NCBI GenBank assembly: GCA_031266915.1 | Contig: JAISAB010000001.1 | Location: forward strand, 1-37,993 | Origin: Rickettsiales bacterium | GTDB lineage: Bacteria > Pseudomonadota > Alphaproteobacteria > Rs-D84 | Direction of reading: 5' to 3' | DNA: 37,993 nucleotides | Part shown: positions 1,926-25,035 of the stretch, in pieces | How the letters are laid out: the number at the start of each line of letters is the position of its first letter | How positions within the stretch are numbered: position 1 is the first letter of the stretch | The notes under the pieces: generated by a model | Told to the model about the DNA's origin: nothing | The model's database searches: none | The model's input: only the letters and a program-made list of their open reading frames with translations | Translations under genes and position numbers: made by a program

Positions 1926-2624
1926 TTAATTCTTAATTATCAGTTGCGCCATCGCGGCGACGGCGGCAGTCTCGGCACGCAGGATTGTTTTGCCCAAGGA
2001 TATTCCGATGGCGCCCACCGCGTCCAGCGCGGCGAATTCGGCGTCCGAAAATCCGCCTTCGGGACCGATAAAAACAGCGCAGCTGTTTTTATCGTGATTT
2101 GTGACTCGTGATTCGTAATTCGAATTGTGCGCCGCGCGTTCATCTGCAAATACTAATTCCTGATTCCTTAGAACTGATTCCTGCAAAAACTCTTTGAATG
2201 TCTTCGGCGGCAGCAGTTCGGGCACGCTGTTGCGGTTTGATTGCTCGGCCGCTTCGACGATAATCTTTTCCATTCGCGACCAATTTACGTGATGCGCGAC
2301 GGTTCGGTCGGTCAGCACGGGCTGCAGCCGCGTCACGCCCATCTGGGTCGCCATGTTCAGCATATCGTCCGTCTTTTTAATCGGCGCGAAGCAGAATGTG
2401 ATGTCGTTGCCCGGGTCAGGATGATTCGTGACACGTGATACGTAACACGTGACACGATTTTTCTCTGTCGTCAATTTCGCCACGTATTCCACACCGTTGT
2501 TAAAGACCAGACATTTGTCGGTCCGCATGACCTTGGTCAGATAGTGCGCCTGGGCGTCATCCAGCGCAAAAGTCTTTCCGACTTCAAGTTTTTTATCAAT
2601 ATACACGCGTGGAATATTTTTCAT
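1926..2624 (-). CDS. rsmE: 16S rRNA m3U1498 methyltransferase RsmE
   Basis: The 232-aa SPOUT methyltransferase has the family hallmarks IGPEGGFS (187-194) and LGKTILRAETA (210-220), which form the SAM-binding trefoil knot, after an N-terminal PUA-like domain. It methylates N3 of U1498 in 16S rRNA. The start at 2624 gives a protein beginning MKNIPRVYI, as expected; a longer frame to 2837 would translate a GC-rich hairpin repeat and is rejected. Two in-frame insertions of the TCGTGAY heptamer repeat are visible at residues 57-68 and about 167-177, both containing SRVTNH. The last residues (IIKN) and the stop codon come from an ATTCTTA repeat. First gene of the rsmE-rluB-TPR operon. Confidence 0.9.
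   Translation of the reverse strand: MKNIPRVYIDKKLEVGKTFALDDAQAHYLTKVMRTDKCLVFNNGVEYVAKLTTEKNRVTCYVSRVTNHPDPGNDITFCFAPIKKTDDMLNMATQMGVTRLQPVLTDRTVAHHVNWSRMEKIIVEAAEQSNRNSVPELLPPKTFKEFLQESVLRNQELVFADERAAHNSNYESRVTNHDKNSCAVFIGPEGGFSDAEFAALDAVGAIGISLGKTILRAETAAVAAMAQLIIKN
2091..2126 (-). repeat. TCGTGAY heptamer repeat inside rsmE (second insertion)
   Basis: Tandem degenerate TCGTGAC/TCGTGAT/TCGTAAT units are read in frame as residues about 167-178. They interrupt the linker just before the IGPEGGFS motif. Confidence 0.8.
2415..2456 (-). repeat. TCGTGAY-type heptamer repeat inside rsmE (first insertion)
   Basis: Units such as CGTGACA, CGTGATA and CGTAACA are read in frame as residues 57-70. 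The insertion lies in the loop between the N-terminal PUA-like strands and the SPOUT domain. Confidence 0.75.
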
Positions 2625-2686
2625 TTTTACCCATTTAATATTAATAATTTCACAGACAGACATTGCCTTATAAGGCTCGTTTTTGT

Positions 2687-2781
2687 CTCCCCCCTCTTGG
2701 GGGGGAGTACCCGCGGAGCGGGGGAGGGGGAGCTCCCCACAGTCTCGCTTTGCGAGACAGCCCCCCTCAAGAAGGGGGGCA
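2687..2781. repeat. GC-rich palindromic intergenic element
   Basis: Nested inverted repeats: a C-run/G-run pair at 2689-2705, TCTCGC-TTT-GCGAGA at about 2743-2757, and GCCCCCCT/AAGGGGGGC at 2760-2780. The element separates rsmE from the VirD4 promoter. Related hairpins recur at 15038-15059, 15307-15326 and 34827-34842. Confidence 0.7.
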
Positions 2782-2833
2782 AATAGAACGCGGCTTAATC
2801 TGTCTGCGAATTGCTTGACTTGCCCAATTCTCG

Positions 2834-2926
2834 TCATTGCGGGAATCCCCTGTATCTATTATTTTTCATTTTAATTGAAAATATGGTATAATCAAGAAAA
2901 ACAAATACAGGGGATTCCCGCAATGG
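2834..2926. repeat. 21-bp inverted repeat flanking the VirD4 promoter
   Basis: CATTGCGGGAATCCCCTGTA at about 2835 is matched exactly in inverse by the sequence ending at the virD4 start codon (2905-2925). The pair brackets an AT-rich segment holding the -10 box. The right arm supplies both the AGGGG ribosome-binding site and the ATG. Confidence 0.8.
2887..2892 (+). promoter_or_regulatory. -10 box (TATAAT) of the VirD4-like gene
   Basis: A perfect TATAAT lies 30 nt upstream of the ATG at 2923. No good -35 is visible at 17 nt spacing. The upstream in-frame ATG at 2875 precedes this box, which supports 2923 as the start. Confidence 0.5.
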
Positions 2927-7929: not shown

Positions 7930-9258
7930 TTAATCTCCGAATGGGTTGTCTGATTTCTTGTATTCGATGACGATGGGCAGGGCCTCCCAGTGCAACACCT
8001 TGGCAAGGCCGCGACGCAGATAGCGCGTATAGCTTTCCGGAATATCGGACGCGCCGCCGACGTTGATGGTAATGCGCATCGGATGCTTTCCCGTCTGCGA
8101 GGCGAATTTGATTCTCATCGGCCGTTTCAGACGCGACATTGGCGGCTGGCGCGCGGCCATCAATTTTTCCAGTGTGCGGTTGATTAGACTGGTCGGCGCA
8201 TGTGCATTGGACAAATCGAACTGTTCATATACGCGCTTGAACATATTTCGAACGCCCGTGCCATTTTCGGCGGATATTGCCAGTATCAGCGGCTTGATAA
8301 TCTGATGGAACGAATTGTTGAACTGATGCTTCAGCTTTAACAGTTTCGCCTCTTGCTCGTCCTTTTCAACCAAGTCCCATTTGTTCAGCGCGACGCACAG
8401 AATCTTGCCCTGTTCATAAACACGGGCGGCAATCCCCAGCGCCTGGTTCTCGATATTCTTCGTGGCATCCACCACCAGGATGACGACATCGGACCGCTCG
8501 ATTGCATCCAGGGACTTCAGCGCCGCCAAAGTCTCCACATCGTCAGTGACGCCCGCCTTGCGCCGCAGGCCGGCCGTATCCATCAGAACGACATCGCGGC
8601 CGTAGAATGTCGCGGGAATCTTCACCGTGTCGCGCGTGATTCCTGGCTCGTCCTTGACAATCTGTCGGGTTTCGCCCAAGATCTTGTTCACCAGCGTGGA
8701 CTTTCCGACGTTCGGCTGACCCAGGATGGCAATCCGCAGACGCTGTTCGATGGATGATGGATGATGGATGACGGATGATGGGACCTGTTCCAGGAATTCG
8801 AAAATCTTGTCAAAGCCGGTTTTATGCTCGGCTGATACCATAACAGGCTCGCCCAAACCCAATTTGTAAAAGTCATGGATATTGCCTAAGCGCGACGATG
8901 ATTCCGATTTGTTCACCAGCAGCAGGACCCTGGCCTTGTTCTTTCTTTTGACGGCGCGCGCCCAGTCAAGGTCTTCGGGCATCAGGCCCGCGCGCCCGTC
9001 GACTACGAACAAGATCGCGTCGGCTTGTTCGATTGCGGCCATGGCCATATTCGTGGAATCCGACGCTATGCCGGTTTTGGCCTTTTCCAAACCGGCGGTA
9101 TCGGACAGCTGCCAATCGGTATTTTTGATTGTTCCACGTACTACATCGCGGGTCACGCCCGGCCGGTCGTGAACCAGCGCGTCGCGTGTCCCCGTCAGTC
9201 CGTTGAACAACGTGGATTTTCCGGTATTGGGCCGGCCGGCAATTGTGACTTTAATCAT
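7930..9258 (-). CDS. der: Ribosome biogenesis GTPase Der (EngA)
   Basis: The 442-aa protein has two tandem GTPase domains and a C-terminal KH-like domain. G1 of domain 1 is GRPNTGKS (8-15), with DTAGLEK and NKSE (the D-to-E form of G4). G1 of domain 2 is GQPNVGKS (180-187), with DTAGLRRK and LNKWD. Der assists 50S subunit maturation. The start at 9258 gives the expected MIKVTIAGRPN; the longer frame to 9339 has no support. The linker between the two G domains contains SSVIHHPSS, encoded by a GGATGAT heptamer tract (8748-8781). In E. coli der sits next to yfgM and bamB; similar genes occur here about 3.4 kb away. Confidence 0.95.
   Translation of the reverse strand: MIKVTIAGRPNTGKSTLFNGLTGTRDALVHDRPGVTRDVVRGTIKNTDWQLSDTAGLEKAKTGIASDSTNMAMAAIEQADAILFVVDGRAGLMPEDLDWARAVKRKNKARVLLLVNKSESSSRLGNIHDFYKLGLGEPVMVSAEHKTGFDKIFEFLEQVPSSVIHHPSSIEQRLRIAILGQPNVGKSTLVNKILGETRQIVKDEPGITRDTVKIPATFYGRDVVLMDTAGLRRKAGVTDDVETLAALKSLDAIERSDVVILVVDATKNIENQALGIAARVYEQGKILCVALNKWDLVEKDEQEAKLLKLKHQFNNSFHQIIKPLILAISAENGTGVRNMFKRVYEQFDLSNAHAPTSLINRTLEKLMAARQPPMSRLKRPMRIKFASQTGKHPMRITINVGGASDIPESYTRYLRRGLAKVLHWEALPIVIEYKKSDNPFGD
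8748..8781 (-). repeat. GGATGAT heptamer repeat inside der
   Basis: Four to five tandem GGATGAT/GGATGAC units are read in frame as the interdomain linker of Der. The same family is found at 13442-13470 in the BamB-like signal region. Confidence 0.85.
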
Positions 9259-10539: not shown

Positions 10540-11598
10540 TTAAAATGTTGCGCGCAGGCCGGCACCCAGAAACGGCAATCCCGCGGATATGCCCAGCGAC
10601 ATCCAGCCATCCACGTTTTCGCTGTATTTGTATCGAAACGACGCCATACCCGTATGCGCCAGATAGTCTTCCGCATTGTCGTCCCAGACGCCAGTGTCCG
10701 ACAACAGGTATGACGCCGACAGGCTGTATTTCAAGAAATCATAGCTGACGCCCGCGCCGACTGCGAATCCGTCCGATGCAACAACCGGATTCTCGTCATA
10801 AACGACGCGGCCGGACAACCCAAAAATCCAGCTGTTGTACTGCAGGTTTAATCCCGCGGACACCTGGGCGCGCCAATCGGCCGTGACACGCGGCGCGAAT
10901 ATATCCGTCTGAAAATTATCGGGCGAATCGATAAACGACGCGCCGAACGAAAACGCAGTTTTGGTCTTGCCGTCCGGGTCGCGATACTTGACGCCGATGT
11001 CGACCGCATATTCATAGTCGGGCGATAATCCGGCGACCGAAACGCCGTACTGCAGTGGCCTGGTCGGAACGGACACGACATTCGCGCGCAGGTCGTACCG
11101 GCCGCTGGTCAGCGTAGTGTTGGAAATAACAGGGCCGCCCAAATCTATCTCTTTGTAAAACAATGGATTGTCGTTCACGCGCAACGCGCCGACATCGGGC
11201 AATCCGACGCCCAGTTTTGTTGCGATGGAATCGGTGTATCCGACCTCGGCCCGGCCCAGCGACGCGTCTTCGAAAAACAGGAATGCGTCGCGCTGCCATT
11301 TATCCTGATAGACAGCCAGTTCGTCAATCGCATAGACCGCGCCGATTGTCCGCCGCGCGCCAAGCGAATAATTGAACTGACCGCGCACGCGCCAGTCGTC
11401 GACAAATGCTGGCGCGTCGAAATCCGGTTCGATAACGCCGATTGTGCCATAGCCGTTTAATCTGAAGCCGTATCCGCCGTGGTTGTATTCAAGGGCGGAG
11501 GCCACAAAAGGCAGAAGGCAAAAGGCAGAAGTCAGAAGGCAGAAGGAACGCAATCTGCGGATGCAATTTTTTAGTAAAAATTTGTTTGCAAAAATCAT
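10540..11598 (-). CDS. Porin-like outer-membrane protein
   Basis: The 352-aa protein has a long signal peptide (about 1-35, ending FVASA) and then an all-beta body. Glycine- and aromatic-rich strands (YGFRLNGYGTIGV, YAVDIGVKYRDPDG, YNSWIFGLSGRVVY) and a C-terminal Phe suggest a 16-strand-like general porin. The conserved-looking start LEYNHGGYGFRLNGYGTIGV resembles Gram-negative porins. The hydrophobic core of the signal peptide (CLLTSAFCLLPF) is encoded by an AAGGCAG heptamer tract. Its ATG overlaps the rpoH stop codon (ATGA), so translation may be coupled to rpoH. Substrate unknown. Confidence 0.75.
   Translation of the reverse strand: MIFANKFLLKNCIRRLRSFCLLTSAFCLLPFVASALEYNHGGYGFRLNGYGTIGVIEPDFDAPAFVDDWRVRGQFNYSLGARRTIGAVYAIDELAVYQDKWQRDAFLFFEDASLGRAEVGYTDSIATKLGVGLPDVGALRVNDNPLFYKEIDLGGPVISNTTLTSGRYDLRANVVSVPTRPLQYGVSVAGLSPDYEYAVDIGVKYRDPDGKTKTAFSFGASFIDSPDNFQTDIFAPRVTADWRAQVSAGLNLQYNSWIFGLSGRVVYDENPVVASDGFAVGAGVSYDFLKYSLSASYLLSDTGVWDDNAEDYLAHTGMASFRYKYSENVDGWMSLGISAGLPFLGAGLRATF
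11507..11549 (-). repeat. AAGGCAG heptamer repeat encoding the porin signal peptide
   Basis: Six degenerate units (AAGGCAG, AAGGCAA, AAGTCAG) run through the h-region of the signal peptide. The same family is intergenic at 36478-36557, 37108-37142 and 37214-37232. Confidence 0.85.
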
Positions 11599-19726: not shown

Positions 19727-20785
19727 ATGAAAATAATCAGTCGATATTTTAGAAAGCAACTGGTCGCGGTGTTTATTATGCTGCTGCTGGTTTTGACGGG
19801 GCTGGCGTGGATGCTGCAGATTATGTCCATGATGAAATTCCTGTTGAATTACGGCGTGGACATCACCAGTTTCATGGGCCTGACGTCCCTGATGATTCCG
19901 TTCATCGTTTCGATTATCATTCCGTTCGTCACGTTTATCGCGATTATCTTTGTTTACAACAAATTGATTGCAGACAACGAAGTCACGGTTTTGGCGGCCA
20001 GCGGCCTGTCGCCGCGGCAAATCGCGGGACCCGCGCTGAGCCTGGCGGCGCTGATGACCGCCATCAATCTGATTGTGAATGTTTGGATTGTCCCGTCAAC
20101 CCAGGCGAAATTCTATGACACCCAGTGGGAATTGCGATACGGCCTGGCCCATATGAAATTGCAAGAGGCCGCATTTACCGAAATCGTCGGCGGGCTGGTG
20201 GTTTACGTGGACAAAGTGTCCGGTCACGACTTGTCCCAGGTAATGCTGACCGATGACCGCAATCCAAAATCCGAAATGACCATATTCGCCGAAAAGGGCA
20301 AACTGGTCGCAACCGCGCGCGGCCTGTCCATCGTCATGACCAACGGTTCGCTGCAGTCCAAAAATGAGAATCTGACCGTCGGGACGTTCGACACGTTCGA
20401 CATGGATTTGAACGTCGCGGACAAATTAGGCGAATCCGTGTTCAAGGTCCGCCGCATTCCGACATGGGATTTGCTGGTGTCAGTCACGCACCAGGAATCG
20501 CAGAAACAGCATAAACTGGCGCTGGCGGAAATCTGCACGCGTTTGCTGAGTCCTATGATGAATTTGATTCTGGCGGCGCTGTGCGCGACGATTCTGCTGC
20601 GCTCGTCCCTGCTGCGCCGTCGCGCCAGCCTGGCGCCGGCGGCGGCGGTCGCCGCGATGGCCGCCGCGATGGCACTGTTTATGACGGCGTCCAACACGAT
20701 AACCAGCCTGACTGAACTGGGCGCTGTGGCGCTGGCCCAGTGCCTGGCGCTGGCGGGAATACTGTACGCGCTGTTCAAGAAATAA
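19727..20785 (+). CDS. lptF: LPS export permease LptF/LptG family
   Basis: The 352-aa protein has three N-terminal transmembrane helices (about 13-35, 50-80 and 98-122), a periplasmic beta-jellyroll (about 130-260, including GGLVVYVDKVSGHDLSQV) and three C-terminal helices. This is the LptF/LptG permease fold that extracts LPS from the inner membrane with LptB. LptF is chosen by position before lptD. lptG, usually adjacent, is missing from the window. The start at 19727 gives MKIISRYFRKQL, the expected N-terminus; the longer frame to 19616 only adds heptamer-encoded residues. No clear ribosome-binding site: the 30 bases upstream are TCGTGAY repeat. Confidence 0.88.
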   Translation: MKIISRYFRKQLVAVFIMLLLVLTGLAWMLQIMSMMKFLLNYGVDITSFMGLTSLMIPFIVSIIIPFVTFIAIIFVYNKLIADNEVTVLAASGLSPRQIAGPALSLAALMTAINLIVNVWIVPSTQAKFYDTQWELRYGLAHMKLQEAAFTEIVGGLVVYVDKVSGHDLSQVMLTDDRNPKSEMTIFAEKGKLVATARGLSIVMTNGSLQSKNENLTVGTFDTFDMDLNVADKLGESVFKVRRIPTWDLLVSVTHQESQKQHKLALAEICTRLLSPMMNLILAALCATILLRSSLLRRRASLAPAAAVAAMAAAMALFMTASNTITSLTELGAVALAQCLALAGILYALFKK

Positions 20786-20787
20786 CG

Positions 20788-22815
20788 ATGAAACATTTGC
20801 TATTTGCTATTTGCTATTTGCTATTTGCCGGCGCGGCCGGCGCGGCCGGCGCGGCCAGCCTGAACATGGACGCGCCAAAGACAATCACCGCGCCGAAAAT
20901 CGAATACAACATCAAATCGTCGGCAATCAAGACAACCGGCAAGACCGAGATTTCAAACGCATCCGGTCAGAAAATCACATTGGTCGATTCTTATATCGCG
21001 AACAAGGGCGCCGATGCGTCCGGCCGGGATATTCAGCTTTGGCTGGGCCAGAACGTGCATGTGACCGCCCAAACTGTAGAACGCCGTGCTGAATCCACCG
21101 TATCGACGCATGCAGTTTTCACCGCTTGCTATGGCTGTGACGATTACGGCAACGCGTGGGAGATTTCAACATCCGCTATAAAGTACGACATGGATGACCA
21201 TATGATGGAATTCTATAACCCGGTGTTCTGGGCTTATGGCGTTCCCGTTCTTTGGTTTCCGTTCCTGGAAATGCCCGACCCGTCGGTCAAGCACAAAAGC
21301 GGCCTGTTGCTGCCGAATTTCAATTCCACGAACAATATGGGCGCGCAGTTCAACCTGCCGGTTTACATCGCGTTAAGCGACGCTCACGACATGACCGCGA
21401 CGTGGTCGTACCTGACGCAAGAAAACCCGCTGTTCCAGATCGAGCATCGCCTGAACGCGCCCCATTCCGAATTCAGGACCAACGGGTCGTTCACGCGCAA
21501 CCGCGAGGGCGAAAACCGCTGGCATATTTTCAACAGCGACGTCGTCGAAATGGGCGAAAACATTCGCACGACGATTTATTTGGAACGTTCGTCCGACAAG
21601 ACTTATCTGCAGAAATACGGATTCTATAACGACCAGCCGTATCTGGATTCCGGCGCCAAGGTCGAATTGTTCGGCGAATCCGGCTATGCCGTCGCCGACG
21701 CGCATATCTTTCAGGAATTGCGCAGCAACCGCCGCCAGCAGCAGGTCGCCGTCCCCAGCGGCGACATACTGCCGAACATTCGCGGCGTTTATCAGACCCG
21801 GCCGCTGTACGGTGAAACCTATCTGTCCCTGAACGCCGATGTTCTGGGAATATCGGGCAGCGCCGCCGCCAGCCAGCGCGTCATCGGCGAATCCAGAATC
21901 ATATCCCCGTGGACTCTGCGGGGGGGAAACCGCGTGACGGCCTCTCTTTCCGCGCGGTACGATATTTATAATTTCGAGAATACGGAAATGCTGGACGGCG
22001 CCGTCGAATCCGGATTGCGGTCGCGCTTTTTGCCCAGCGGGTATTTGGAATGGTCGCTGCCGATGATGAAAGGTGGTGGAAAATGGACGCAGATTGTCGA
22101 ACCGCGCGCCCGGATGACCGTCATGCAGGATTCGTCCGACGCGGCGTACGCGTTGAACAATGATTCGGTCGGCGCGCTGCTGTCCGACGCGACGCTGTTT
22201 TCGAACAATCGTTTTTCCGGATTGGATTTGTGGGAAAACGGAACGTTCGCCGATTACGGCGTCCGCTGGGCCGCGTTCGACGGCGACAGCCATAATGTCG
22301 AGGTCTTTCTGGGCCAGTCCTATGATTTCGCCAATCGCCCGGACACCGACCCAAACAGCGGATTTCACAACGGCGCGTCCGATTACGTCGGGCGCATCGG
22401 ATACGAAAACGACAGGTGGATGGCGCTGGGGACGCGGTTCCGATTCGCGGAAAATAATCTGTCGCTGCGCCATTTGGAAACTGCAGCGAAAATCGGCACA
22501 AGCCGGAATTATTTCAGCTTTGGCCACATCTGGGCGGCGCAGTTTACCGACGCCGAGACCTTGGGCGACGACATCAACGAACTGACGGCGGGAACGAACA
22601 TTTATCTGACAGGGCGCTTTGGAATAAAGTTCAATGCGATTTACAATATAACTGACGAAAAATTCCAAAGGCATACTGGCGGCGTGTTTTATAATCATCC
22701 GTGCTATTTCCTGTCGCTGGAATACCGGCGCGACAACACGCACAAGGAAGACTATGTCGGAAACACGACTTTCCAGTTCCGCTTCGGCATGGCCATCAAC
22801 GGCGTCAAACAATGA
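20788..22815 (+). CDS. lptD: LPS-assembly outer-membrane protein LptD
   Basis: The 675-aa protein has a signal peptide, an N-terminal LptA-like beta-jellyroll (about 28-130) and the conserved region PVFWAYGVPVLWFPFLEMPD, which precedes the LptD barrel. A long C-terminal barrel ends in FQFRFGMAING. It inserts LPS into the outer leaflet. It lacks much of the spacer seen in larger LptD proteins. The start is 2 nt after the lptF stop, implying coupling. The signal peptide is encoded by four to five TTTGCTA heptamers followed by three tandem 9-mers GGCGCGGCC (GAA x3). A Cys pair (CYGC) occurs at about residue 110. Confidence 0.9.
   Translation: MKHLLFAICYLLFAGAAGAAGAASLNMDAPKTITAPKIEYNIKSSAIKTTGKTEISNASGQKITLVDSYIANKGADASGRDIQLWLGQNVHVTAQTVERRAESTVSTHAVFTACYGCDDYGNAWEISTSAIKYDMDDHMMEFYNPVFWAYGVPVLWFPFLEMPDPSVKHKSGLLLPNFNSTNNMGAQFNLPVYIALSDAHDMTATWSYLTQENPLFQIEHRLNAPHSEFRTNGSFTRNREGENRWHIFNSDVVEMGENIRTTIYLERSSDKTYLQKYGFYNDQPYLDSGAKVELFGESGYAVADAHIFQELRSNRRQQQVAVPSGDILPNIRGVYQTRPLYGETYLSLNADVLGISGSAAASQRVIGESRIISPWTLRGGNRVTASLSARYDIYNFENTEMLDGAVESGLRSRFLPSGYLEWSLPMMKGGGKWTQIVEPRARMTVMQDSSDAAYALNNDSVGALLSDATLFSNNRFSGLDLWENGTFADYGVRWAAFDGDSHNVEVFLGQSYDFANRPDTDPNSGFHNGASDYVGRIGYENDRWMALGTRFRFAENNLSLRHLETAAKIGTSRNYFSFGHIWAAQFTDAETLGDDINELTAGTNIYLTGRFGIKFNAIYNITDEKFQRHTGGVFYNHPCYFLSLEYRRDNTHKEDYVGNTTFQFRFGMAINGVKQ
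20795..20856 (+). repeat. TTTGCTA heptamers and GGCGCGGCC 9-mers encoding the LptD signal peptide
   Basis: Heptamers at 20795-20828 encode LLFAICYLLFA. Three perfect 9-mers (20830-20856) encode GAAGAAGAA before the mature part. Confidence 0.9.
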
Positions 22816-22881: not shown

Positions 22882-23718
22882 ATGAAAACACTTTTCAAAC
22901 CTTTACTCTTTATTCTTTATTCTTTATTTATTTGCATCGGCGCCGCCGATGCCGCCAGCGTCGTTGCAACAGTGGCCGGCCGGCCGGTTACCGACGCCGA
23001 CATCACGGCGCGCGCGGCGCTGATGAACAAGCAGGGCGACGTGTCCACGGACAACCGCAAGCGGGCGCTGCAGAACATTATCGACGACCAGATTAAAACT
23101 GATTACGCCGCAAACTTCAAGGTCACTGTAACCGACGCCGACATCGACAAGGAATTACAGGCCATGAATCTGGGTGAATTGTCTGCGACCCAGCGCGCGA
23201 TGGCGAAAACCGCCGTGGCCGCGAACATCGCCTGGCAGATTGTGATCGCCCGCACGATTATCCCGACAATCAAGGTATCCGACGAAGAAATAGCCGAAGA
23301 AAAACACGACCTGGAACGCGCGCGCGGCCTGCCGATTGAAATGACGATTGTGCGCCTGATTGACATCCCAGAATCCGCGGCCACCAAGCTGACCAAACCC
23401 AAATCATGCGACGACGCCATGGAACAGGTGCAGCGGCTGGGCGGCCAGCCGCAGAAATTCACCGCTGCGCAGTACGAATTGTCCGCCGATATTCGCGAAC
23501 GCGTCATCGGCCTGCCGAAACTGACCTGGTCGGCGCGGCGGGATGACTCGGTCCTTTTGGTGTGCTCGGAAAAAAAGACAGCCGAGTACGGCAAGCTGGA
23601 CGAGGTCATCAAACAAAACGCCGTTTACAAAAAAGCCATGTTTATGGCCGACCAGCAACTGAAACAACTGCGCCGCAAGGCCGTCGTCGTCGTCCACGAC
23701 AGCAGATACAAACAGTAG
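22882..23718 (+). CDS. surA: SurA-like periplasmic chaperone lacking a clear PPIase domain
   Basis: The 278-aa protein has a signal peptide (about 1-25, cleaved after ADAA) and a SurA N-terminal domain (VVATVAGRPVTDADITARAALM, IDDQIKTDYA). A degenerate region follows where the parvulin PPIase domains normally lie; no intact parvulin signature is seen and it is much shorter than E. coli SurA (428 aa). SurA escorts barrel proteins such as LptD. The position after lptD matches the usual order lptD-surA-pdxA-rsmA, but pdxA and rsmA are missing. GGAG lies 11 nt before the ATG. The signal-peptide core FILYSLFI is encoded by TTTATTC heptamers. Confidence 0.75.
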   Translation: MKTLFKPLLFILYSLFICIGAADAASVVATVAGRPVTDADITARAALMNKQGDVSTDNRKRALQNIIDDQIKTDYAANFKVTVTDADIDKELQAMNLGELSATQRAMAKTAVAANIAWQIVIARTIIPTIKVSDEEIAEEKHDLERARGLPIEMTIVRLIDIPESAATKLTKPKSCDDAMEQVQRLGGQPQKFTAAQYELSADIRERVIGLPKLTWSARRDDSVLLVCSEKKTAEYGKLDEVIKQNAVYKKAMFMADQQLKQLRRKAVVVVHDSRYKQ

Positions 23719-23803: not shown

Positions 23804-25035
23804 TACTATTTAATCTTACATCCGCCGAATTGGAAAAGTTCATCACAGATATGGGCCAGCCGCGCTTTCGCGCGAAACAGATTTCCGAATGGCTGAACCG
23901 CGGCGCGCCTGATTTCGCGTCGATGAAGAATCTGCCGGAATCATTGCGCGAACAGCTGGACGCAACGGCGCGCACCCTGCCTGTCAGAATCGTCCAAAAA
24001 TTGAATTCATCCGACGGTCAGACAACCAAGTTTCTATTGGAATTAAACGATGGCCAGCGCATAGAATGCGTCCTGATGCGCACCAGTTACGGCAACAGCG
24101 TATGCGTTTCGTCCCAGGCCGGCTGCGCGATGGGCTGCAAATTCTGCGCCAGCACGCTGCTGGGGCTGAAACGCAATCTGACTGCTGGTGAAATGTACGC
24201 CCAGCTTTTGGTCGCCAATTGGGAGCTTCGATCCAAAGTCGAATGTATTAATGATAATGAACCACCTTCGCTCTGCGCTCTGCGACCTTCGACCTATAGC
24301 GAAGCAACCTCGCATGTGGTCGTTATGGGCACGGGCGAGCCTTTGCAGAACACTGAAAACCTGTTCGGGTTTCTGGAACGCGCGAACCGGGATTTGGGAA
24401 TCGGATGGCGGCGGCTGACCGTGTCCACCTGCGGAATCGTGCCGGGCATTCGGAAATTGACCGAATGGGGCCGACCGATCAATTTGGCAATATCACTACA
24501 CGCGCCGAACGACGAATTGCGCAGCGAAATCATGCCGATAAACAACAAGTATAAAATATCTGATGTTCTGGACGCCGCCTTTGAAAACGCGGATGCGCAT
24601 AATCGCCAATTGATGATTGAATATATTTTACTGGAGGTTGAAGAGCGAAGAGCGCAGAGTGCAAGCTCCGCCGCTTCGCGGCAGAGCGTAGAGCGCAGGT
24701 TGCAGGTGGAAGATATTGATAATAACGAACCACCTTCGCTCTGCGCTCTACGACCTTCCACCTGCCGCAAAGCGGCAACGCGCTCTTCCACCTCTAATTG
24801 CACCCCGGCGCAGGCCGAAGAATTGTCAGCGCTACTGGCGGGCCGGAATTGCATGGTAAATCTGATTCCTTGGAACGCGGTGGACGAGCGTGACTTTGCC
24901 CCCCCCTCAGGCAACACCGTGCATCGCTTTCAAGACATTTTGATTAAGAACGGAATTCACACCCGTATTCGCCGCGAGCGCGGCACCGACATCGGCAGCG
25001 CCTGCGGCCAGCTGCGCCTGCGGCAGGATATATGA
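23794..25035 (+). CDS. rlmN: Dual-specificity RNA methyltransferase RlmN with repeat-encoded insertions
   Basis: The 413-aa radical-SAM enzyme methylates C2 of A2503 in 23S rRNA (and A37 of some tRNAs). It has the cluster motif CAMGCKFC (Cys111/115/118), GTGEPLQN, and the methyl-carrying Cys404 in GSACGQLR. Two in-frame insertions are seen, residues 144-172 and 281-336. Both contain NEPPSLCALRPST and are encoded by GCTCTGC-type heptamer palindromes. They sit in loops between core elements, so the enzyme may remain active; it is longer than E. coli RlmN (384 aa). The start codon lies within a TAGTNNN repeat and has no visible ribosome-binding site. Confidence 0.92.
   Translation: MTEILFNLTSAELEKFITDMGQPRFRAKQISEWLNRGAPDFASMKNLPESLREQLDATARTLPVRIVQKLNSSDGQTTKFLLELNDGQRIECVLMRTSYGNSVCVSSQAGCAMGCKFCASTLLGLKRNLTAGEMYAQLLVANWELRSKVECINDNEPPSLCALRPSTYSEATSHVVVMGTGEPLQNTENLFGFLERANRDLGIGWRRLTVSTCGIVPGIRKLTEWGRPINLAISLHAPNDELRSEIMPINNKYKISDVLDAAFENADAHNRQLMIEYILLEVEERRAQSASSAASRQSVERRLQVEDIDNNEPPSLCALRPSTCRKAATRSSTSNCTPAQAEELSALLAGRNCMVNLIPWNAVDERDFAPPSGNTVHRFQDILIKNGIHTRIRRERGTDIGSACGQLRLRQDI
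24223..24309 (+). repeat. Palindromic heptamer insertion 1 in rlmN
   Basis: About 87 bp in frame. The ends pair (GCTTCG/CGAAGC, GTCGAA/TTCGAC) and the core holds CTCTGCG units. The core CCACCTTCGCTCTGCGCTCT is shared with insertion 2. Confidence 0.85.
24634..24801 (+). repeat. Palindromic heptamer insertion 2 in rlmN
   Basis: About 168 bp in frame. GAAGAGC/GAAGAGC/GCAGAGT units are on the left and the inverse on the right, with internal hairpins CCGCTTCGCGG and TGCCGCAAAGCGGCA. It encodes the 56-residue loop before TPAQAEEL. Confidence 0.85.

Follow-up and report, generated by a model that had tools for sequence, protein, structure and literature searches.

Two in-frame inserts in RlmN as probable copies of a dispersed palindromic repeat built of 7-nt units in an alphaproteobacterium

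The rlmN gene and its two inserts

The stretch of DNA analysed here (37,993 nucleotides, hereafter the window) comes from a small alphaproteobacterium that is kin to gut symbionts, and it carries an rlmN gene with two in-frame inserts (Table 1). The encoded protein matched the RlmN family model TIGR00048 with an E-value of 1.8e-95, which is over the curated cut-off, and the top Foldseek matches obtained with its predicted fold were all RlmN structures. The cysteines C111, C115 and C118 (cluster) as well as C104 and C404 (catalytic-type) were invariant in an alignment of 35 sequences, confirming the preliminary description of this locus, in which the catalytic cysteine and the cluster motifs were considered to be retained. 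The same description assigned the peptide NEPPSLCALRPST to both inserts, and the translated ORF indeed contains it in each of them. At the DNA level the two inserts have a direct repeat of 68 nt in common, with 82% identity (24238-24305 versus 24706-24773).

Both regions had been called insertions, and in an alignment with the RlmN sequences of 29 relatives and PDB 6fz6 they were indeed found to differ or to have no counterpart. The RlmN of a congener (G001, 'Rickettsiales bacterium isolate Cc175_bin31', locus L071; assembly 69% complete) has neither insert. AlphaFold2, run on the 35-sequence alignment, gave pLDDT values <50 for two segments, residues 150-169 and 284-332; the model places both inserts as low-confidence loops outside a predicted intact RlmN fold.

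Insert 1 is located in a linker between WELR and SHVVVMG that is variable across all relatives. The net gain compared to the congener is only 6 residues in this already variable linker, which indicates that native sequence was partly replaced. Insert 2 is extra sequence between a strand ending in MIEYILL and a helix that starts from NCTPAQAEEL. Of the earlier claim that both inserts are palindromic, the part concerning insert 2 stands (predicted hairpin with an MFE of -89.6 kcal/mol, z -9.8), but the part concerning insert 1 does not, as this insert folds no better than shuffled sequences (-20.7 kcal/mol, z -0.9). Insert 1, with only the loop and the right arm left and such a weak z-score, is therefore most readily understood as a copy of the element that has decayed and no longer folds into a hairpin.

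Table 1. Position of rlmN, of the parts of its two inserts and of other heptamer arrays within the window.
Feature	Position	Strand	Evidence
TAGTNNN/ACTANNN palindrome (other class) just upstream of rlmN, includes the rlmN start codon	23717..23799		MFE -47.5, z -9.1
rlmN with two in-frame inserts, 413 aa	23794..25035	+	NCBIfam TIGR00048; Foldseek
Insert 1, residues 145-172; loop and right arm of the element kept	24226..24309	+	alignment, hairpin z, pLDDT
Insert 1, heptamer array CTTCGCT CTGCGCT CTGCGAC CTTCGAC CT	24266..24295	+	lag-7 scan
Insert 2, residues 281-334; full palindromic element	24634..24795	+	alignment, hairpin z, pLDDT
Insert 2, left outer arm GAGGTTGAAGAGCG...	24634..24669	+	inverted repeats I1, I7; fold
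Insert 2, mini-hairpin module GCCGCTTCGCGGC, common to many copies	24670..24682	+	alignment of copies
Insert 2, inner left arm, heptamers AGAGCGT AGAGCGC AGGTTGC AGGTGGA ...	24683..24715	+	inverted repeats; copy alignment; fold
Insert 2, non-periodic loop TTGATAATAACGAACC, read D-N-N-E-P	24716..24731	+	conserved among most copies
Insert 2, right arm ACCTTCGCTCTGCGCTCTACGACCTTCCACCT, read PSLCALRPST	24732..24763	+	inverted repeats; copy alignment
Insert 2, inverted mini-hairpin GCCGCAAAGCGGCA and right outer arm	24764..24795	+	inverted repeat I7; fold
Signal-peptide heptamer arrays	20784-20830; 22882-22930; 11490-11598 (-); 13402-13540		

Copies of the element in other genes

The genome is available as a metagenome-type assembly (26 contigs, 95% complete), of which about 435 kb of the 1.09 Mb (40%) was read base by base. 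The 68-nt unit had 41 matches across the genome, and a profile of this rlmN class identified about 20 copies within ORFs, full or partial, with E-values down to 1e-36. On the basis of Pfam and NCBIfam the host proteins were UvrB, UvrA and RuvB (at the N-terminus), AddA and AddB, a XerC/D recombinase, RarA, TruB, QueH and RlmE, IleRS, CysS and ArgS, LepA, PFOR/NifJ, a D-Ala-D-Ala carboxypeptidase and a phage TerL; one further copy was found just upstream of mnmG. In full copies the left arm is followed by the mini-hairpin GCCGCTTCGCGGC, then by the inner left arm, the loop TTGATAATAACGAACC and the right arm, and the copies have the peptide ERRAQSEG..SVERRSQVEGVDNNEPPSLCALRPST conserved. For copies of about 80-170 nt the hairpin z-score was between -3.6 and -10.2 in 12 out of 14 cases. 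The ends differ between copies, the length varies from about 40 to 165 nt, and shorter, partial copies are also present. At two intergenic places (L013 and L151:19641-19800) the rlmN class is combined with an AAAGTTC-like array into a composite copy, and the two composites are arranged similarly.

The two rlmN inserts are separate copies of this dispersed element, and there is nothing special to rlmN. Copy 1 matches the CysS and LepA copies at 88% and copy 2 at 86%. An origin of the second rlmN copy by duplication within the gene is disfavoured, as copy 1 resembles the copies in cysS and lepA at least as closely as it resembles copy 2. A double hit is also unremarkable by number: with about 20 insertions in about 1000 genes, the chance of a double somewhere is estimated at about 0.2.

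Absence from orthologues and from other genomes

Like RlmN, the LepA, AddB and IleRS proteins of the congener lack the element, as do TruB, QueH, CysS and AddA of other relatives. The case of LepA is a clean insertion of 29 residues: the congener has GDTITDARATVETLPGF, and the protein studied here has GDTITDAKAMV, the 29 residues and then EPLPGF. In several hosts, among them UvrB and RlmN (site 1), native loop sequence was partly replaced by the insert; for UvrB, the element is absent from the PDB protein. The preliminary description had considered that all relatives might carry the inserts; the comparison went the other way, with relatives that are free of them. We found no match to the rlmN-class element in plasmids, and among the other Alphaproteobacteria only a match to the mini-hairpin (35 nt) in 1 of the 289 genomes of the class. 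Five viral contigs with an 18-nt core were rejected as relatives of the element, as the contexts contain no heptamers and look like chance.

In the RlmN of another genus (G013, locus L046), site 1 (1930-2030) is occupied by a hairpin of octamers, (AAGGACAA)n, and site 2 (2371-2430) by AGAGCGA heptamers. The presence of unrelated arrays at both loops indicates that these are permissive sites, which were hit independently. At the AddB loop that is occupied by the element in the genome studied here, the G013 protein has extra sequence of another kind (L168 and L188 being the AddB loci of G001 and G013).

Heptamer arrays across the genome and the family

A scan for self-matches at lag 7 yielded 39 arrays in the window and 0 in a codon-phase shuffle. 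Over the 435 kb, 198 arrays with period 7 were found versus 0 in shuffles, and the other periods from 3 to 13 gave 6 or fewer each. An initial guess for the array pattern, GGAGGGGCTTCGCC, had no match. The arrays fall into at least a dozen unit classes (TAGTNNN/ACTANNN, CGTGATT, GGTAATC, TACCCAG, TATTTGC, AAGGCAG, GAGATAG, AATTAAG, AAAGAAT, TAACAGA, ATGGATG, AAAGTTC, CGCAGAG and others), and for 59% of them an inverted partner lies no more than 160 bp away, compared to 4.6% for random places. Within the TAGTNNN class, identical neighbouring units occurred 4 times versus 16.9 expected, and the unit-order statistic was 1111 versus 581 +/- 26 in 1000 shuffles. The same array architecture, with other units, was observed in several other genera of the family (G004, G008, G009, G013 and G028), of which G013 additionally has a class of 8-nt units. 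In the genus Enterousia (g10) neither of the two patterns searched was found, and the 40 kb that was read contained no period-7 arrays.

Arrays of other classes are also found in coding regions of the window. RsmE (1926-2837, minus strand) contains two in-frame inserts of the CGTGATT class, read YVSRVTNHP and YESRVTNHD, and is the second double-hit gene within the window. Heptamer arrays make up the signal peptides (e.g. LLFAICYLLFAG and SFCLLTSAFCLLPF) of LptD, a SurA-like protein, an outer-membrane protein and a BamB-like lipoprotein; in the congener, the signal peptide of the SurA-like protein is different and of an ordinary kind. In Der, an ATCCATC array (8749-8781, minus strand), read SSVIHHPSSI, forms the linker that joins the two GTPase domains.

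Reading frame and translation

None of the 49 arrays that are closed in all six frames was located within a long ORF (partly by definition), and 24 of the 28 arrays that are open in five or six frames were located in ORFs, the in-ORF fraction of the genome being 0.81. The rlmN-class consensus is open in one forward frame and in three reverse frames. The sense orientation was found for 13 of the 14 in-ORF copies that could be oriented (two-sided binomial about 0.002). Although a sample of 14 copies is small, we take this bias to suggest that the translated product is under selection. In the forward frame the loop is read as a hydrophilic turn, DNNEPP, and in the reverse frames as less hydrophilic stretches. 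The host frame was open across every in-gene copy examined. We infer that the inserts would be translated, neutral padding in mostly housekeeping proteins.

Origin and spread of the element

Taken together, the rlmN inserts are probably two copies of a non-autonomous, dispersed and lineage-specific hairpin repeat made of degenerate 7-nt units, which is tolerated in frame as translated, disordered padding. The element would have been copied, its units staying in the same order, into many genomic places. The CTCTGCG/CGCAGAG unit is nearly free of stop codons in all frames, and this is probably why rlmN-class copies survive inside proteins. The survivors would be those copies that landed in permissive surface loops, kept the frame and are read through as a hydrophilic D-N-N-E-P-P loop; unit classes that bear stops (TAGTNNN) would survive only between genes. 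As to the copying itself, we tentatively favour hairpin-primed template switching or ectopic copying in replication or repair, with no dedicated transposase, because none of the four transposase families searched for was found, the ends are variable and no clear target duplication was seen. The latter holds for the empty site in LepA. With differing ends and no clear target-site duplication, no insertion reaction can be read from the copies.

Two alternatives concern what becomes of the inserts in the cell. Strong hairpins within a coding sequence might suggest that the inserts stay untranslated, either by removal at the RNA level, as the preliminary description had allowed, or by ribosomal skipping. 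That the reading frames are uniformly open speaks against this, the sense bias and the hydrophilic frame of the loop are expected only if the inserts are read, and apart from one tRNA no Rfam RNA was found in the window; we consider such an escape from translation exceedingly improbable. The 13:1 sense bias, the single main peptide and the small number of intergenic rlmN-class copies would also fit an element that is kept for a useful peptide or hairpin (regulation, stability or an interaction motif). We give this explanation little credence, as the inserts are lineage-specific, variable in length and situated in predicted disorder, and as unrelated arrays occupy the same RlmN sites in G013; moreover, in-gene copies are harder to delete precisely, which by itself would favour retention.

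The other two alternatives concern the way of dispersal. A MITE- or REP-like palindrome moved in trans, by an IS200/RAYT or DDE transposase that recognises the hairpin or the ends, would be in line with palindromic, dispersed copies that have a conserved core in common and that are inserted in genes and in a phage TerL, as is seen for MITEs and REPs. However, none of Y1_Tnp (PF01797, IS200/RAYT), DDE_Tnp_1 (IS4), rve (IS3) and Transposase_mut (IS256) was found in the 95%-complete genome (a past transposase could be lost), and the variable ends and length and the lack of a clear target duplication do not fit either, which makes movement in trans unlikely. In-place expansion of 7-nt units by local polymerase slippage, with the similarity between sites due to convergence on a favoured unit length, would agree with an exact 7-nt period over many unrelated units and genomes, which suggests a mutational preference, and slippage has been proposed for heptameric simple sequence repeats (PMC4692102). 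Against it, different copies have the non-periodic loop TTGATAATAACGAACC and the mini-hairpin in common, and in the TAGTNNN class identical neighbours are depleted and the unit order is conserved. The ordered units, the depletion of identical neighbours and the shared non-periodic loop point to the copying of whole ordered units; simple slippage was rejected for the dispersal and expansion in place is very improbable, although slippage may have been the origin of the first array in each class.

A reverse transcriptase was also considered as the engine and rejected: two RVT_1 genes are present here and none was found in the array-rich G028 (88% complete), so there is no correlation. The two reverse transcriptase genes are located at L153:9817-10830 (minus strand) and G000:C25:31235-31840; the former encodes a GNLCSQ motif, which we take to be the motif seen in diversity-generating retroelements.

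More generally, the family may possibly harbour transposase-free, 'heptad-modular' palindromes, with several genera each having 7-nt hairpin sets of their own per genome and with the stop-free class giving rise to new protein segments (loops, signal peptides). We know of no established mechanism for the spread of the protein-coding palindromes of Rickettsia and Wolbachia. As array-rich genera occur beside the array-free Enterousia, a comparison within the family could address the copying agent, the reason for the 7-nt unit and how often repeats supply new protein segments. Annotators should be aware of the repeat origin of loops such as NEPPSLCALRPST.

Comparison with known systems

The element differs from a simple sequence repeat in that runs of identical neighbours are depleted and the unit order is conserved (TAGTNNN class). 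Like REP and MITE sequences it is a short dispersed palindrome without genes of its own, but the RAYT transposase (Y1_Tnp) that accompanies REPs was not found in this genome, and compared to MITEs it has no fixed ends and no clear target-site duplication, with all four transposase families searched not found. Heptameric repeats have been described with the units GGGAATC in Xanthomonas, GGGGA(T/C)T in Nostoc and TAACTGA in Beggiatoaceae (PMC4692102, PMC4679880). These are also abundant 7-nt arrays that are patchy among lineages, and some are inverted repeats; however, they have one main unit type per genome and are mostly intergenic, whereas here at least a dozen unit classes are present, usually hairpin-paired, with one class mainly in genes.

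The palindromic elements of Rickettsia and Wolbachia are dispersed, have a length of about 100-150 bp, belong to several families per genome and are found in frame in housekeeping proteins (PMC10969869, PMC2229807, PMC3767692). The parallel with the Rickettsia elements drawn in the preliminary description extends further, to about 20 host proteins with one main frame and to absence from orthologues. In both cases a dispersed palindrome with a long stem-loop (here in copies of about 80-170 nt) is located in frame in unrelated conserved proteins and encodes a conserved peptide. The differences are that the host here is neither Rickettsia nor Wolbachia, its relatives being Alphaproteobacteria incertae sedis and Candidatus Enterousia, that the element has a strict internal 7-nt period and variable ends and length, and that insertion sites are not shared with the congener, while those of Rickettsia elements are often shared among species. 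Likened by description, the element behaves as a Rickettsia palindromic element does and is a candidate member of those families. It is plausible that its sequence type differs, as it had no match in plasmids and, apart from the 35-nt match to the mini-hairpin, is confined to this genome among the 289 genomes of the class. The combination of periodic 7-nt units and in-frame protein palindromes was not found in the open-licence literature. The element connects another alphaproteobacterial lineage to the protein-coding palindromes, with a different, periodic architecture.
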